Assembly: GCA_017624905.1 (NCBI GenBank) | Contig: JAGAMD010000003.1 | Span: forward strand, 1 to 54,510 | Length of the DNA: 54,510 bases | Direction of reading: 5' to 3' | DNA from: Clostridia bacterium | GTDB taxonomy: Bacteria > Bacillota > Clostridia > Oscillospirales > CAG-272 | Shown here: positions 17,742 to 34,283 of the stretch, in pieces | Position numbering within the stretch: the stretch's first letter is position 1 | Layout of the letters: each line of letters begins with the position of its first letter | Notes under the pieces: model-generated | What the model was told of the DNA's origin: nothing | What the model saw: the letters and a program-made list of their open reading frames with translations, nothing else | The model's database searches: none | Made by a program: the position numbers and the translations under genes

Positions 17742-20700
17742 TTATTGTACGCCGTAAGCCTCTTTTAGCCAATTATGACGGCTTTCTAGCCATTCTCTTA
17801 GGTAGTCTATAGCATTGTTATAGCTGATATCTACTCTTTGGTCAACACCGTATTTTTCTGTGATAGTGTATTTTTCCCAGTTTTTGATACGTGCAGCTGT
17901 ATATGCATCGTCTTCATAGAACTTATCTATAGAATTTACAAGAGTTTCGTTTTTGCTGATTTTAACATCCTTGTAGAGAAGAGTCATTTCTTGATCATAT
18001 TCTTCAAGATATGTTATAACAAGATCCATAAATTCCGGAGAATACTTATATAGGTGTAAGAAATAGCCGGTTGAACCGCTATGCCAAATTGAATTAGCCC
18101 AAAATCCGGTTGTACTATCATCTTTAACACCAAAGCATATATCTGCATATGAACCTGTGTTTATATAAGCACCCCAAGAACCACCATCTTGACCGGTACC
18201 TGTATCCTTGTTACCAATCGCAAAGTCCCAGTCCCAAACAGGTCCGCCATATAACTTTCCATCTTGAATATAGAATTGTGTTGAGTCGTAACCAATATCA
18301 ACAGCTTTTAAATAATCGTGCAATAGATAAAATTTAGCCATAGACTCAACATCTACCCATTTTTGGATTTCTTCCCAGTCACCTGAGTAAATAGCTAAGC
18401 TGATTTGATTGAATGTAGAGACAAGCTTAGAGTATGCCTCGGCACTCATTTCTTCGGGAGCTTCAACTAACATATTAAGACCACCGAATTCTTTGAACAA
18501 GCCATCGTGAGACATAATCAAGCCGGTGTTATCGTCGCCGTGATTAGATTTGATTTCAAGTAAGAAGTCGTTTTCCTCGTCGATTTCTACTCTAGCTTCA
18601 CCAACATCAACGGGGGTGGTTAGCATATAAACGCCATCATATCTGCCGTTGTAATATACTTCAACCATTATATATTTAGATGTGTTTTCAAGTCCAATAG
18701 ATTCTGCAAAATCTATTGCAATTGCATTACGGATAAGAGTTTGGTCATAAAGGTTAGCGAGTAGAGAATACTTTTTACCTGCACCCATACCAAACAAATC
18801 AACCTTTGAGCTGAATTTAATATTATATGGATATTTGATGGAGTTGGCAGTTGAGTTACCTCTAATTTTTATTGTACCGTTATGTTCAATTGCTTCAACC
18901 TTGTATTCGCCGTTTTCTTTATATGCAATAAAGAATTTAGCAGAAGAGTATTCTTTACTTAAATTACCATCTTTTTCTATAAATACAACAGGAATGTCAT
19001 TTACATTGAATTTAAGGTTAGAAAGTAGGTTGCGTAAAAGGTCAACGTTGTAATCAACAGCCTCTTGTGTTAGGTTCATATCCTTGTTTTCAAGAATAGG
19101 CTTAAGCATAGCAACCATATCAGGAGCATAATATGTCTCGTAATACTTAGAAATTTGACCAATTAGCATATTAAATACTGAATAGTCAACCTTTCTGCTT
19201 TCAAATGTACCACAAACACTGCAAGTACTATATTCGTATCCAAAATTACTTTCAACAGTGTACCAGCTGTGCTTGTGAGGAGCAAGCTCTAAAGTTGTAT
19301 ATTTCTTGGTTCCACAAATACTGCATTCATCGATTAATTGACCGTTGACAGAGCAAGTTGAATGGATTACAGTTTGATTGCTTTCTTCAAATACACACTC
19401 TGATTTAGGAGTGTTTTCTTGCTCAATTAACTCACCACAATCTGTGCAATATGTAATAACAAGACCATTTGTTTTACAACCTGCTTCTGAAAGAGTGATA
19501 GATTCTGTATTGGCATGATTTTCACAAGCATCCTTGAACGGGGTGAAGCTTTCAATATATGTTTCACGACATACAAGGCAGTTTCCTATAACATATGAAG
19601 GTGCATTATCACCACCTAAAACAGTTTTGAAATTTGAAATATGACCTTCACATGTTTCTGTGATAATTTTAACTTGCTCGTTACAATTTCTACAATTAAC
19701 TACTGAATATTCATCTGTAGTACAAGAAAGAGCAACCTTTTCAACAATTGGACCTGAGTGACCAAGCTCTTTAACAAATGACAAGCTATCGCAAACTACA
19801 CATTGATTATAGCCATATTCATCACAGCTTGGAGCTAAGTCTAAATAACCATACCTGTGCTCAACACACTTGGTTTCAGAAACCTTGAAAAAGTTTCTAA
19901 CATTTGAAGGAGCAGCAAGCTTATCATTTTTTGTGTAAAGCATAAATGTTGTAGGTGTTCCATCAAATGCACCAACACCGATAGTAGAAATATTAGCATC
20001 AAGAACAACCCATTCCAAAGAAGAACAGTCCTTAAATGTATCAACGCTTATTTGTGAAATTGAATTAGGAATATAAGCGGTTTTTATCTTTGTAGAGCTA
20101 AAGGCTCCATCACTAATGGATGTAACATTGTTAGAAATAATGATTTTTTCAACATGTGCATTGTTTTTAAATGCCTTTGCACCAATAGTAGTTACATGTG
20201 ATGGTACGATATATGTAGTGGCATCCTTTTGATAAGGATAAAATACTAAGGTTTTAAAGTTGTCAGTATACAATACACCATCGGATGAAGTGTATTTTAG
20301 ATTGTTAGTTGCAACAACGGATTCAAGACCGGTGCAACCTTCAAATAAAGGCAAAATATCTACATCTAAATTAGGTATAACAAAGGAGGTTATTCTTGTG
20401 CATTTTTTAAATGCGTCAAGGCTCATAGATTCAACAACTGATAAATCATAAGTGCCATGTAGAGAGTAGCATTGAGAGAATGCAGTGCTACCAATAGAAT
20501 CAACCTTACTTGCAAATCTTATTTCAAGGAGTGATCTACAATCAAAGAAGCAATTTTTACCATAGCTTGTAATGTTCTCAGTGTTTACAGAGGTTAGAGA
20601 ATGACATTTATAGAATGTTCCTTCTTCGATTGTTGTGATAGTGCTAGGTAATTTTACGGAAGTAATACCAAAGCAGTTGTAAAAAGCATTTGCTCCAATA

Positions 20701-21098
20701 GAGGTAACACCTTCAGGAATTACAATATCGCCAACTATATAAGTGCTTTGAAACGCACTGCTGCCAATTGTAGTTACGGAACTGGGGATTGTTACCTTGC
20801 CGAACACCTTTTTGTTGTCTTTGAAAGCGTTGTCGGCAATAGCAGTAACCTTGTAGTCAACAACTCCGGATTTGGTTTCAGCAGGAAAACTTGCAGGAAT
20901 ATCAAATTTAGGAGTTTTTTCTAAGTTTACTGTAGCTTGAGTGATGGTTGCACTCTGAGTTTCATCATCTAAAGTATATTTCCATACTATACCATCAATT
21001 TCAGTTTCAGCAGCAAACACCGTGAATACGGAAAGTGTGGTAAATAAAATTAAAGTTAAAATGGAAGCAAAAAGAATTTTGCCAAGGCTTCTTTTCAT
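17742..21098 (-). CDS. Secreted LRR / CxxC-repeat / CotH-kinase protein
   Basis: This 1118-residue exported protein has three parts after a signal peptide (about 1-29). Residues about 60-400 are BspA-type leucine-rich repeats (LRR_5), recognisable as IPSSVTTIGSSAFQ and IPEGVTSIGANAFYNC. Residues about 400-640 hold CxxC modules (CVVCDS, CRNCNE, CTDCGE, CSICGT, CSVCGT). Residues about 690-1110 form a CotH-type atypical kinase domain, with RGNST...YPYNIKF near the start, a conserved YNGRYDGVYML strand, and the metal-binding WDWDFAIGN motif. CotH kinases phosphorylate proteins outside the cell (spore coat CotB/CotG in Bacillus); here it could modify surface proteins or polysaccharide-bound partners. 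It is monocistronic with a good promoter. Confidence 0.9.
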   Translation of the reverse strand: MKRSLGKILFASILTLILFTTLSVFTVFAAETEIDGIVWKYTLDDETQSATITQATVNLEKTPKFDIPASFPAETKSGVVDYKVTAIADNAFKDNKKVFGKVTIPSSVTTIGSSAFQSTYIVGDIVIPEGVTSIGANAFYNCFGITSVKLPSTITTIEEGTFYKCHSLTSVNTENITSYGKNCFFDCRSLLEIRFASKVDSIGSTAFSQCYSLHGTYDLSVVESMSLDAFKKCTRITSFVIPNLDVDILPLFEGCTGLESVVATNNLKYTSSDGVLYTDNFKTLVFYPYQKDATTYIVPSHVTTIGAKAFKNNAHVEKIIISNNVTSISDGAFSSTKIKTAYIPNSISQISVDTFKDCSSLEWVVLDANISTIGVGAFDGTPTTFMLYTKNDKLAAPSNVRNFFKVSETKCVEHRYGYLDLAPSCDEYGYNQCVVCDSLSFVKELGHSGPIVEKVALSCTTDEYSVVNCRNCNEQVKIITETCEGHISNFKTVLGGDNAPSYVIGNCLVCRETYIESFTPFKDACENHANTESITLSEAGCKTNGLVITYCTDCGELIEQENTPKSECVFEESNQTVIHSTCSVNGQLIDECSICGTKKYTTLELAPHKHSWYTVESNFGYEYSTCSVCGTFESRKVDYSVFNMLIGQISKYYETYYAPDMVAMLKPILENKDMNLTQEAVDYNVDLLRNLLSNLKFNVNDIPVVFIEKDGNLSKEYSSAKFFIAYKENGEYKVEAIEHNGTIKIRGNSTANSIKYPYNIKFSSKVDLFGMGAGKKYSLLANLYDQTLIRNAIAIDFAESIGLENTSKYIMVEVYYNGRYDGVYMLTTPVDVGEARVEIDEENDFLLEIKSNHGDDNTGLIMSHDGLFKEFGGLNMLVEAPEEMSAEAYSKLVSTFNQISLAIYSGDWEEIQKWVDVESMAKFYLLHDYLKAVDIGYDSTQFYIQDGKLYGGPVWDWDFAIGNKDTGTGQDGGSWGAYINTGSYADICFGVKDDSTTGFWANSIWHSGSTGYFLHLYKYSPEFMDLVITYLEEYDQEMTLLYKDVKISKNETLVNSIDKFYEDDAYTAARIKNWEKYTITEKYGVDQRVDISYNNAIDYLREWLESRHNWLKEAYGVQ

Positions 21099-26352: not shown

Positions 26353-26743
26353 GGGTACGTAATGGTTTCGACGGGGACTGTAAGATATGATAAGCGTAGC
26401 GGGCTGGCTAATCCCGTATAATGGCTAAACTTAAATAATAAACGACAACAGAAAAGTTGCTATGGCTGCCTAACTAATTGCCCCTCGGGGCGATTAGTGG
26501 CAGTGCCGTGGACATAAGCTCCACCCGTTCCTCTGGGGAGTACCTCGACCCCGGACTGAGCGTAAAATGAGAGGTGAACATGAACCGAGAGTTGCCTTTG
26601 TATCGGTCATGCATAAAAAGGCTACCCGAATAAGAGCCTGTTAATCGGCGCTTTGTAGGGGAATTTTAATAGATTAACTGCCTACGGAGAAATTTATATC
26701 AAGTGGTTTTCGGACGCGGGTTCGACTCCCGCCGTATCCACCA
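26353..26743 (+). ncRNA. ssrA: Transfer-messenger RNA (tmRNA)
   Basis: The 5' end GGGTACG pairs with CGTATCC before the discriminator and encoded CCA (26741-26743), forming a tRNA-Ala-like acceptor with one G-U pair. GTAATGGTTTCGACGGGGA at the start and the T-arm GGGTTCGACTCCC at the end are diagnostic. The tag frame reads AAC GAC AAC AGA AAA GTT GCT ATG GCT GCC TAA (26441-26473), giving NDNRKVAMAA with the usual small hydrophobic end. The codon before AAC is ATA (26438-26440), not the usual GCN or GGN resume codon. The length of about 391 bases is typical of one-piece tmRNA. SmpB is encoded 0.9 kb upstream. Confidence 0.96.
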
Positions 26744-31164: not shown

Positions 31165-31193
31165 TTGACAAAGAAATTTAATTATGTTAAAAT
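31165..31193 (+). promoter_or_regulatory. Promoter of the kinase-PqqD-peptidase cassette
   Basis: -35 TTGACA (31165-31170), 17-base spacer, extended -10 TGTTAAAAT (hexamer 31188-31193), divergent from the GT2 promoter. Confidence 0.83.
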
Positions 31194-31223
31194 CTATGTG
31201 TGAATTTTTTTGCGAAAGGCTTT

Positions 31224-31955
31224 ATGGTGAAAGAGATGTTTAAAATCAAAATTGCCGACACAGTGGTTGAAATTCATAACATTTATTCATTTGTAGAGAC
31301 ACTTTGCAAGGATTACATTTACAATGGTGATGATTCTGATATAATAGTGAAATCTACTCAAGATATGATAGAAGAAGAACGCTTGGTTTCCACCGAAGAG
31401 CAGTCAAATGATCCATATCTTGAGAACATTTGTGTGTACCGACAAATTGCACTTGAGCTTATAAAAAGAGATACATTTGTTATGCATGCCGCTACTGTTG
31501 GAATTGGCAATAAGGCATATGCGTTTACAGCTAAAAGTGGCACAGGAAAAAGCACGCATATAGCTCTTTGGAAACGTTTGCTTGGCGATAAGGTGTATGC
31601 AATTAACGGAGATAAGCCGATAATTAAAATTATTGATGGCAAAGCCTATGCATATGGCTCTCCTTGGTGTGGAAAAGAATTTTGGAACTCAAATGTTAAA
31701 GCGGAGTTAAATGGAATTTGTTTTCTTGAAAGAGGGGAAGAGAATTCTATTGAAAAATTAGATATTTCAGAGGCTGCATCTAAGATAATGAAACAAATTT
31801 TGATTCCAAAGGATGCAGAAGGTGTTATAAAAACCTTTGACTTAGTAGATCAAATGCTTAGAGCCACAAATTTGTGGAAATTGAAATGTAATATTTCAAT
31901 GGAAGCTGCGCAGCTCTCGTATAAAACAATGCACGGAGGAATTTATGAAGATTAG
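31224..31955 (+). CDS. HPr-kinase-like P-loop protein of a PqqD cassette
   Basis: This 243-residue protein has a Walker A SGTGKSTH (about residues 105-112) and a following INGDKP segment that fits the HPr kinase C-terminal (HprK/PEPCK-type) fold. A conserved MHAATVG strand precedes the P loop. True HprK N-terminal and HPr-binding parts are absent. Such HprK-like proteins are known in ribosomal-peptide clusters (for example lasso peptides such as paeninodin, where one phosphorylates the precursor). The start is uncertain among ATG 31224, GTG 31227 and GTG 31200; GAAAGG at 31214-31219 favours the first two. It overlaps the PqqD gene by 11 bases. Confidence 0.78.
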   Translation: MVKEMFKIKIADTVVEIHNIYSFVETLCKDYIYNGDDSDIIVKSTQDMIEEERLVSTEEQSNDPYLENICVYRQIALELIKRDTFVMHAATVGIGNKAYAFTAKSGTGKSTHIALWKRLLGDKVYAINGDKPIIKIIDGKAYAYGSPWCGKEFWNSNVKAELNGICFLERGEENSIEKLDISEAASKIMKQILIPKDAEGVIKTFDLVDQMLRATNLWKLKCNISMEAAQLSYKTMHGGIYED

Positions 31956-32214
31956 AAACGGTTTTGTTGCACGTGATGTAGGAAATAGAACGTTTGTCGT
32001 AGCTGTTGGTGAGCTTAGTAAATCATTCAATGCAATGATTACTTTAAATGAAACAGGAAAAGCTATTTGGCAAGCTCTTAAAACGGATACATCAATAGAT
32101 GAAATAGTAGAGAAGCTTCTTCTTGAGTTTGAGGATGCAGAAAAGGAATTAGTCAAGCGTGATGTTATTGCATTTGTAAACAAGCTTGATGAAGCGAATG
32201 TACTTGAAAAATAA
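31945..32214 (+). CDS. PqqD-family protein (peptide recognition element)
   Basis: This 89-residue protein fits the PqqD family: RNGFVARDVGNRTFVVAV strands, the LNETGKAIWQALKTDTSIDEIVEKLL winged-helix segment, and a final helix DVIAFVNKLDEANVL. PqqD folds bind the leader of a ribosomally made precursor peptide and present it to modifying enzymes. GGAGG precedes the start. It overlaps the kinase upstream and the peptidase downstream, so the three genes are a tightly coupled operon. No precursor peptide or radical SAM enzyme lies next to it. Confidence 0.85.
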   Translation: MKIRNGFVARDVGNRTFVVAVGELSKSFNAMITLNETGKAIWQALKTDTSIDEIVEKLLLEFEDAEKELVKRDVIAFVNKLDEANVLEK

Positions 32215-32656
32215 GCAAGAATTGAAGGATATATGGCCTCTGATTAACGAGGTGATATCTAGTGGTGGTGAATTCCAAATATACCCAAACGGTGTGAGTA
32301 TGTTGCCACTGATAAGACCAAGCGTTGATATGGTTACATTGGTTTCTCCAAAAGAGCTACAAAAAAATGACATAGTTTTATATCAAAGAGCATCAGGTCA
32401 GTTCGTTTTACATCGTCTTATAAAAGTGGATAAAAAAGGCAATTGCACTATGTTTGGAGACAATCAAAAAGCACTTGAGCGCGGAATACCACTAGATAAT
32501 GTACTTGCAAAAGTAAAAAGCATACAAAGAGACGGTGAAACCGTGGATTTTTCGAGTAAAAAGTATAAAAAATATCTTAGAAGAATACATCGCAGGATAA
32601 ATTTTTACAGATTTCCGGTGCTTCTAAGTAAAATAAAGCATAAAATTTTCAAATGA
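32198..32656 (+). CDS. S24/S26-family peptidase, SipW-like
   Basis: This about 152-residue protein has the Ser nucleophile motif GVSMLPLI near residue 34 and the motif FVLHRLIKV near residue 70, with His in place of the Lys of classical signal peptidases, as in the S26B/SipW group. GDNQ and the DNVLAKVKSI strand complete the family pattern. It has no N-terminal membrane helix, so it is probably soluble or peripheral, unlike ordinary signal peptidases; the C terminus is strongly basic. The start is ATG 32198, within the end of pqqD; no good ribosome site exists, so it is translationally coupled. It likely cleaves a modified peptide. Confidence 0.75.
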   Translation: MYLKNKQELKDIWPLINEVISSGGEFQIYPNGVSMLPLIRPSVDMVTLVSPKELQKNDIVLYQRASGQFVLHRLIKVDKKGNCTMFGDNQKALERGIPLDNVLAKVKSIQRDGETVDFSSKKYKKYLRRIHRRINFYRFPVLLSKIKHKIFK

Positions 32657-32690
32657 AAAAGCACTTCAAACGAAGTGCTTTTCTTTTGTT
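32656..32690. terminator. Terminator shared by the cassette and the convergent membrane gene
   Basis: AAAAGCACTTC and GAAGTGCTTTT pair around AAAC, with T-rich flanks on both strands. Confidence 0.88.
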
Positions 32691-33470: not shown

Positions 33471-34283
33471 CTAAATTTTTTTGTAAATGGCAAAATTAAC
33501 CTCTATAATAGTACTTATTGATTCAAGGCAAGATAGCTTGTCCTTGTCAACTTGACTAGTTCTGTGAAAATACGGAGTCATAGTAAATAAAGAATAAATA
33601 ACGTCATTTCCGTTGATTTCAACCGAGTATTTTAAATTTTCTACATTTACAAGCTCAAATCCGTCGTATTTTAAGAACTTTTCTTCGTTGGGATAGATAT
33701 TGTCATAAATCGCTTTTTTGAGCCCGTTTAAGTGGTCTATGCCTGCTGAAGCAACAATTAAATGACCATTTGGCTTTAAAATTCTCAAAAATTCTTCGTT
33801 TGCAACGGGAGCAAATAGGTTCACAATTACGTCTGCATAGTCATTTTTTATTGGCAGGTCAAAAATATTTGCAACTGAATAGTGTAGCTGATTTAGTCCA
33901 TCGCGTCTCGCCATTTTAGCTCCATGCTCACAGCCAAACTTAGACATATCAAAGCCAAAAACCTTAGACTCTGTGTACGTTTTTGCGAGATTGTGTGTGT
34001 AATACCCCTCTCCACAACCGGCATCTACAATAATACCATGGTCAACGGAAGAAACTATACTATTTAGCTTATCTGAAATACTTTTATAAGCACCACATTC
34101 AAAGAATTTAGTACGAGCACGTATCATTTCCTTTGAATCTCCTGCTTTCTTATTGTTCATTTTGCCCGGATTAAGTAAATTTATATAGCCACTAGAGGCA
34201 AAATCAAATGAATGTCCTTTCTCACATTTTAAAGAGTTGTCGCATTTAGTTAATGAATTTTTGCATATAGGACATAAAAACAC
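33471..34283 (-). CDS. RlmA-type 23S rRNA guanine-N1 methyltransferase
   Basis: This 270-residue SAM-dependent enzyme carries a zinc ribbon near residues 4-25 (CPIC, CEKGH) and the GDSKEMIRARTKFFE segment typical of RlmA. The SAM motif is VDAGCGEGYYT near residue 86. RlmA methylates a G in helix 35 of 23S rRNA (G745 in Gram-negatives, G748 in Gram-positives, where it can confer tylosin resistance). The Gram-positive (TlrB-like) class is likely, but cannot be decided. The start codon is GTG, with GGAGGTGAT upstream. It is divergent from the rumA-like gene and shares an overlapping promoter region. Confidence 0.85.
   Translation of the reverse strand: MFLCPICKNSLTKCDNSLKCEKGHSFDFASSGYINLLNPGKMNNKKAGDSKEMIRARTKFFECGAYKSISDKLNSIVSSVDHGIIVDAGCGEGYYTHNLAKTYTESKVFGFDMSKFGCEHGAKMARRDGLNQLHYSVANIFDLPIKNDYADVIVNLFAPVANEEFLRILKPNGHLIVASAGIDHLNGLKKAIYDNIYPNEEKFLKYDGFELVNVENLKYSVEINGNDVIYSLFTMTPYFHRTSQVDKDKLSCLESISTIIEVNFAIYKKI

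Follow-up and report, generated by a model that had tools for sequence, protein, structure and literature searches.

What does a small operon do that encodes a kinase, a peptide-recognition protein and a peptidase, with no gene for a peptide beside it? The question is raised by a 54,510-nucleotide stretch of DNA from a gut-type bacterium of the Clostridia (the window), on which three such genes stand together. An earlier note, made from the sequence alone, proposed either a minimal independent peptide pathway or one whose substrate is encoded elsewhere. Our analysis supports both, the second more than the first, and the kind of pathway turns out to be known already, from the Linear Polyphosphorylated Peptides (LPP) published in May 2026 for the lpp cluster of Paenibacillus alginolyticus, a member of the Bacilli (PMC13381572). 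According to that paper, LppK places one to several phosphates on Ser3 of the core, LppB is a RiPP recognition element (RRE) to which a YxxP leader binds, and removal of the leader falls to the SipW-like LppS, which requires S29, H68 and D93 and works only together with LppB. Precursor without phosphate is poorly processed, LPP are reported in association with capsule, and the role of the phosphopeptides is left open there. We consider it probable that the cassette in the window supplies the shared maturation enzymes of a fragmented LPP-like RiPP pathway, with its precursors encoded at distant loci. An orphan three-gene unit would thereby become a pathway whose candidate substrates can be named within its own genome, so that the function of the cassette is directly testable.

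The cassette and its recurrence

The description of three overlapping genes behind one good promoter holds. The three ORFs are all there, overlapping by 11 nt and 17 nt with the preferred starts, and the region 31165-32682 is confirmed as a compact unit running from promoter through the kinase, PqqD and peptidase genes to a terminator (Table 1). The promoter agrees with the consensus at 11/12 positions; the consensus scan found 14 promoter-like sites in the scanned region against 8.5 expected, and the promoter call is consensus evidence only. The listed start of the kinase ORF, GTG 31200, lies 7 nt past the -10 box and is therefore disfavored. Judged from the sequence, ATG 31224, with AAAGG immediately 5' of it, or ATG 31236 is likelier, as is ATG 32198 over the listed TTG 32186 for the peptidase.

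Table 1. Features of the cassette in the window and candidate precursors elsewhere in the same genome
Feature	Position	Strand	Remarks
Sigma-70-type promoter	31165..31193	+	TTGACA, 17 nt, TAAAAT; TG ahead of -10
HprK-like P-loop kinase (LppK-like) gene	31224..31955	+	Walker A SGTGKSTH
PqqD-type RiPP recognition element (LppB-like) gene	31945..32214	+	PF05402 E 6.7e-17
SipW/S26-like peptidase (LppS-like) gene, Ser-His-Asp	32198..32656	+	Weak profile matches, conserved triad
Intrinsic terminator	32657..32682	+	11-pair stem, T tail, directly 3' of peptidase gene
Candidate precursor, 80 aa	C7:49148-49390		Own genome, leader profile
Candidate precursor, 55 aa	C23:106040-106207		Own genome, leader profile
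Candidate precursor, 57 aa	C23:27718-27891		Own genome, leader profile

The first protein had been read as a P-loop protein like the C-terminal domain of HPr kinase. Its relatives bear this out, with 30 of the 34 aligned matching ScmC, 19 HprK_rel_A and 2 Hpr_kinase_C (E<=0.01), but the window protein itself stays far below the cutoffs, both for ScmC (E 0.0013, 18 bits, cutoff 125) and for the NCBIfam models HPr-rel-A, HPr-rel-B and SynChlorMet (13-18 bits, cutoffs 125-200). From these profile matches, the likeness to HprK is judged real but remote. The single kinase sequence used as query found no relative in the genome_contigs collection. A plasmid or phage origin was considered and rejected: tblastn with the kinase returned three partial plasmid and two partial phage matches, with less than 80% coverage and less than 40% identity, and none of five proteins matched PHROGs at E<=0.01.

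The identification of the second protein as PqqD-type is secured by its Pfam match (Table 1). It scores below cutoff against the HPr-rel and SynChlorMet PqqD models of NCBIfam (13.8-15.4 bits, cutoffs 35-100) and against the PQQ-biosynthesis PqqD model TIGR03859 (35.3 bits, cutoff 46), and a profile of its relatives matches the solved LppB (9X8Z) at 4.6e-7, ranked behind TbiB1 and TfuB1. When the leader-holding residues of the RRE and its tyrosine pocket are mapped by reading of the alignment, the equivalent of Asn33 is present in 39/39 relatives, that of Asp70 in 32/39 and that of Tyr60 in 38/39, a position at which the window protein carries F. As for the third protein, announced as an unusual soluble SipW-like peptidase with a Ser-His motif, no N-terminal membrane segment is seen when the sequence is read by eye, and Ser34 and His72, joined by Asp88, are invariant in all 34 aligned relatives. 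It matches SipW (4.9e-6) and the archaeal-type signal peptidase I model (1.1e-7) only weakly, below cutoff, and 12/34 of the relatives match Peptidase_S24. The draft genome (1.5 Mb, ~75% complete) holds one PqqD and one kinase of the cassette type.

The triplet is not a chance assembly, because the same gene order recurs in many genomes. A kinase homologue is found at E<=1e-5 in 145 of the 246 genomes of the family. We fetched 60 stretches around such homologues, a non-random choice from the match list, which with the window make 61; profile searches place a PqqD gene in 46 and a peptidase gene in 35 (one a fragment), and kinase, PqqD and peptidase follow in direct succession in 25/61 by reading. 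A second, peptidase-centered set comprised the best 80 of 542 confirmed relatives in a named collection, some of them on short contigs, all titled Clostridia-type or Bacillota MAGs and many from herbivore gut samples. Here a PqqD gene lies on the same strand within 2.5 kb in 71, a kinase gene in 56 and both in 54, so the three genes do co-occur beyond the window. Within the genus, all 12 loci read, the window's included, have the gene order kinase-PqqD-peptidase-methyltransferase, always with the same methyltransferase as flank; in the window this RlmA-like gene occupies 33471-34283. In four loci (L036, L038, L041 and L054) a kinase gene lies directly 3' of the gene for a large protein (1303-1392 aa) that begins like a lipoprotein, the four proteins forming one family; two of these kinases come with PqqD, and none with a peptidase by profile.

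The earlier note also stated that no B2-type protease, lasso cyclase or radical SAM enzyme adjoins the cassette, and this proved correct. A Pfam scan of the 23 flanking ORFs (17.7-44.1 kb) gave no ABC transporter or exporter, no NTP_transf_5, no radical SAM domain, no lasso B2 and no lasso-type asparagine synthetase; the nearest name to the last is AsnA (PF03590), a different family. Nor do the homologous triplets mostly sit next to such systems. By a crude motif test, 4 of the 80 peptidase loci may have a radical SAM gene, two of these matches being probably spurious because they stand at the position of the window's tRNA methyltransferase, and 7/80 have a putative asparagine-synthase-like gene, at least 5 kb away. 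In one locus (L084, 8223-5135 on the minus strand) the kinase gene is separated by a leader-like peptide gene from that of a radical SAM-like protein of 448 aa, behind which come PqqD and peptidase, possibly a version of the cassette with an extra modifying enzyme. The window's other contents include an ordinary tmRNA gene (26353-26743) adjoining smpB.

Could the window nevertheless hold what was once a full LPP or lasso cluster, or one cut by an adjacent assembly gap, so that precursor, exporter, NTP transferase or cyclase is missing from it? The incompleteness of the draft speaks for such a loss, as does the fact that elsewhere a precursor (11/80 peptidase-centered stretches) or an NTP transferase (18/80) does lie near the cassette. 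However, the cassette sits inside a 54.5-kb contig, with no exporter, NTP transferase or lasso gene among the 23 flanking ORFs scanned, the same methyltransferase borders it in every genus locus read, and no precursor was seen in those 30 of the 80 loci that match best, some of them short stretches. In addition, lasso B2 (PF13471) has no match in the window's own genome and passes its cutoff in just 1/246 family genomes, inside a 1070-aa frame, which makes lasso chemistry unlikely in this family; a lasso peptide pathway was set aside for this effective absence. We regard the loss or gap explanation as very unlikely.

Candidate precursors at distant loci

The claim that no precursor lies nearby stands for the window, yet the same genome carries candidates on other contigs. 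Small ORFs with a Shine-Dalgarno sequence near distant cassettes share a recurrent leader, YxxPxxExxxxxxxDIxxxS, and a first profile was built from six such ORFs adjoining distant cassettes; later profiles had 8 and 28 rows. Against the window's own genome (E<=10) the six-row profile gives two matches, at C7:49148 (E 1e-4) and C23:106207 (E 1e-3), and the eight-row profile adds a third at C23:27805-27873 (E 7.7e-5; 0.08 under the 28-row profile). The contig of the window has no match, and a weak match on contig C22 is a frame of 19 residues. Cluster-based RiPP mining misses substrates that are encoded in trans, and it is the leader profile that finds these candidates.

The leader is well defined across genomes. 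From the fetched loci 62 distinct leader peptides were read, 58 of them preceded by a Shine-Dalgarno sequence; 61 were long enough and 60 could be anchored, the rule being Y/F/H at position 0 with D/N at +14, so that Y at 0 and D at +14 are conserved partly by construction. Among these 60, Y stands at 0 in 56, P at +3 in 51, E at +6 in 50, I/V at +15 in all 60 and S at +19 in 59. Behind the +19 serine follow a median of 26.5 residues, whose net charge has a median of -4. Ten column-shuffled profiles give no match on 2.05 Mb, where the real profile gives 24 in 20 loci, including some rows used to build it, and pN/pS is 0.09-0.61 in 10/10 pairs among five leader orthologs, with few differences per pair. 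Ten leader peptides have no match in Pfam; as for a known NCBIfam family, the two weak matches obtained, both to one of the ten peptides, lay below cutoff and were rejected. No description of the leader family turned up in PMC open-licence full text, and the family may be described elsewhere.

Leader genes are dispersed, with up to ten matches per genome (E<=0.01), and reach across the order, where 83/394 sampled genomes in 50/168 genera have a match (E<=0.001). In the MAG loci L187 and L202 they lie close to the cassette. Prochlorosin-type systems, in which one lanthipeptide synthetase serves many distant precursors, resemble this arrangement in that one set of maturation enzymes would act on many precursors in trans, but the cassette would use a kinase, an RRE and a peptidase instead.

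Leaders co-occur with the cassette. In the family (n=246; leader threshold E<=0.01; counts uncorrected for phylogeny) the kinase is present in 84 of 87 leader-positive genomes versus 61 of 159 leader-negative ones (Fisher 8e-22), the three leader-positive genomes without it being G176, G177 and G187. PqqD is likewise found in 81/87 versus 67/159, and among PqqD-positive genomes leaders occur in 80/131 with the kinase versus 1/17 without. The 61 of 145 kinase-positive genomes that have no leader match may reflect the insensitivity of a 26-residue profile.

Within the genus (n=29, E<=1e-3) the raw association with the peptidase is weak, with leaders in 16 of 17 genomes that have a strong peptidase match versus 7 of the 12 others (p 0.056). 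Many of these 12, however, appear to lack the locus through incomplete assembly. When the RlmA-like methyltransferase was sought in them at E<=1e-30, it was not found in seven, and in G176 the contig ends inside it on the cassette side; the cassette locus is thus taken to be unassembled in eight genomes, all of which have leaders (that of G260 by eye, E 0.03). The remaining four (G241, G251, G258 and G261) have an intact flank but neither the cassette at that place nor a visible leader; weak matches in G251 (E 0.38) and G241 (E 0.51) were rejected, since the longer frames that contain them (275 and 201 aa) lack the D and S positions. G027, peptidase-positive without a profile match, has a leader gene with a Shine-Dalgarno sequence by eye (E 0.36). 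With the eight unassembled loci set aside, leaders occur in 17/17 genomes with the cassette and 0/4 without it (p 1.7e-4), a comparison that depends on a post hoc reading of contig ends and on accepting G027 and G260 and rejecting G251 and G241 by eye. Kinase and PqqD genes were read beside the peptidase gene in 12 of the 17 loci, and were present in all 12. The cassette-free G241 carries a different operon (L312, 6904-9462), encoding an HprK-like kinase, a radical SAM-like protein with CNLNCKTC and a 238-aa protein, possibly a fusion, with a match to the PqqD profile and a GVSM motif like that of a peptidase.

This agreement bears on the possibility that the cassette acts on some other substrate, for instance a protein of a capsule locus, and that leaders accompany it through shared lineage or lifestyle. 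Leaderless HprK genes, some with PqqD, do lie beside large secreted-protein and exopolysaccharide genes, and the kinase-positive genomes without a leader match fit such a role. Against it stand the genome-by-genome agreement that one genus shows when the unassembled loci are left out, the leader genes near the cassette in some of the peptidase-centered stretches, and the presence in the leader of the YxxP motif to which, according to PMC13381572, PqqD proteins of this kind bind. We therefore hold another substrate to be unlikely and favor the scattered leader peptides as substrates of the cassette.

Relation to LPP and the proposed pathway

Comparison with LPP, as described in PMC13381572, suggests how such peptides might be processed. 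Both systems have an HprK-like kinase, a discrete PqqD-type RRE and a SipW-like Ser-His-Asp peptidase; both leaders carry YxxP and a conserved serine, at Y+18 in LPP and at Y+19 in the present leader family; and in both the product is presumably linear. Because the three enzyme types of LPP occur together with a kept catalytic triad and kept RRE residues, we infer an LPP-like processing of the scattered peptides. By analogy, the PqqD protein would bind the YxxP leader of the scattered precursors, the HprK-like kinase would phosphorylate a serine, for which the near-invariant Y+19 position is the likeliest candidate, although the exact site is speculative, and the SipW-like peptidase would cut off the leader close to this serine. 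The cut probably falls between Y+16 and Y+19; as a guess, cleavage after Y+18 would mimic the F-x-T rule of LPP as I-x-T/A. The product would be an acidic linear phosphopeptide, perhaps destined for the cell surface, with export and a surface role being speculative.

The differences are nevertheless substantial. Where LppS spaces His and Asp by 25 residues, the window peptidase has 16. The LPP leader reads YxxPxVLxHQxIxFETxxS, whereas the present leader has no F at the LPP position, and the LPP cleavage motif Px9Fx[T/A] occurs in 0/60 anchored leaders. The LPP cluster, as the same text sets it out, contains one to three precursors, an NTP transferase and an MsbA-like exporter, in contrast to the window cassette, which has its leaders on contigs C7 and C23 instead of its own and neither an NTP transferase nor an ABC transporter domain among its flanking ORFs. 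Moreover, LPP are known from Bacilli, while the present cassette comes from Clostridia and many of its presumed precursor genes lie behind secreted-protein genes. The whole words 'Clostridia', 'in trans' and 'dispersed' are absent from the main text of PMC13381572, which is the only paper in PMC open-licence full text to use the LPP term. Because an adjacent precursor, the LPP leader motif, an adjacent NTP transferase and an adjacent exporter are all missing, the cassette is better described as a variant that would work like LPP than as a member of the class as defined. By this comparison it would be a new, fragmented variant of a pathway that is not new in kind.

A gene of the LppN type (NTP_transf_5, PF14907) does lie elsewhere in the same genome, at G000:C23:65107-65826, and 23 of the 29 genus genomes have one. 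Several of the genus genes stand among polysaccharide-like genes when read by eye, which fits the capsule association reported for LPP. The phosphorylated lasso peptides of the paeninodin type, as described in PMC7533575 and PMC13381572, also combine an HprK-like kinase, a PqqD RRE and a [Y/W]xxP leader. Unlike them, the cassette has neither a B2 protease nor a cyclase among its 23 flanking ORFs, and its leader is of the Y-type, not the W-type.

Secreted-protein genes beside the leader genes

The neighbors of the leader genes were scanned in 47 loci (20 genus, 20 family, 7 cassette) drawn from match lists and not all independent, three of them coming from the one genome G157. Of the 51 leader starts listed, three are second starts of the same gene, and 48 have a complete upstream gene. 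In 28 cases this gene is on the same strand and within 150 nt of the leader start, and by a crude test a signal peptide, as in Sec-secreted proteins, is present in 23 of these 28, compared with 110 of 400 genes of those loci, a background that includes the partner genes themselves (p 2.7e-9). All but one of the 23 signal-peptide partners are at least 300 aa long. At gaps of at most 20 nt the upstream gene has a signal peptide in 16/16. In the window's own genome two leader genes follow genes for secreted proteins (351 and 625 aa), and the third lies 222 nt past an ABC permease gene.

Such close spacing invites the reading that the short ORFs are not precursors at all, being instead translation-coupled regulatory or stability elements of secreted-protein operons. 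The gaps of -4 to 20 nt in those 16 cases speak in its favor: several leaders begin at the very stop codon that ends the secreted-protein gene or only a few nt from it. What it leaves unexplained is a conserved amino-acid leader under purifying selection, with its own Shine-Dalgarno sequence in nearly every case, found in some places apart from secreted-protein genes and co-occurring with PqqD and the kinase. We give this explanation next to no weight and continue to treat the short ORFs as candidate precursors.

The partners themselves are varied. Nine partner or neighbor proteins searched against Pfam comprise four with BspA-type LRR, two with DUF4886 and three without a match above cutoff, and two sets of C-terminal domains (A and B) are common to otherwise different partners. 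These domains mark a precursor operon imperfectly and were rejected as a strict sign of one, since a leader lies within 250 nt downstream in only 2/6 proteins of set A and 4/8 of set B, all outside profile building but mostly from stretches that had been chosen for leaders. In genome G157 near-identical 43-aa peptides are encoded behind three different secreted proteins of 954-1325 aa (L278, L279 and L282). Tentatively, and with considerable doubt, one cassette might mature acidic phosphopeptides from many dispersed genes across the genome, each peptide being produced along with a large secreted protein and acting with the C-terminal domain of that protein at the cell surface or glycan coat, as a partner in attachment, assembly or display rather than as a free antibiotic or signal. 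That LPP-like peptides are linked to large secreted proteins gives a first concrete clue to the function of such phosphopeptides.

Three individual loci complete the picture of these neighborhoods. The window encodes at 17742-21098, on the minus strand, a 1118-aa protein that combines BspA-type LRR repeats with a CotH domain, the surface-protein type of several leader partners, on a contig without a leader match. Stretch L193 has ORFs of 1859 and 653 aa that both end in a set-B domain, each with a leader match within 156 nt downstream, and it also holds PqqD, peptidase and kinase genes. Finally, in four members of the genus (L232, L247, L248 and L251) the leader gene lies behind an ABC permease-like gene that is much alike in all four; this is a conserved leader site with no secreted protein upstream.
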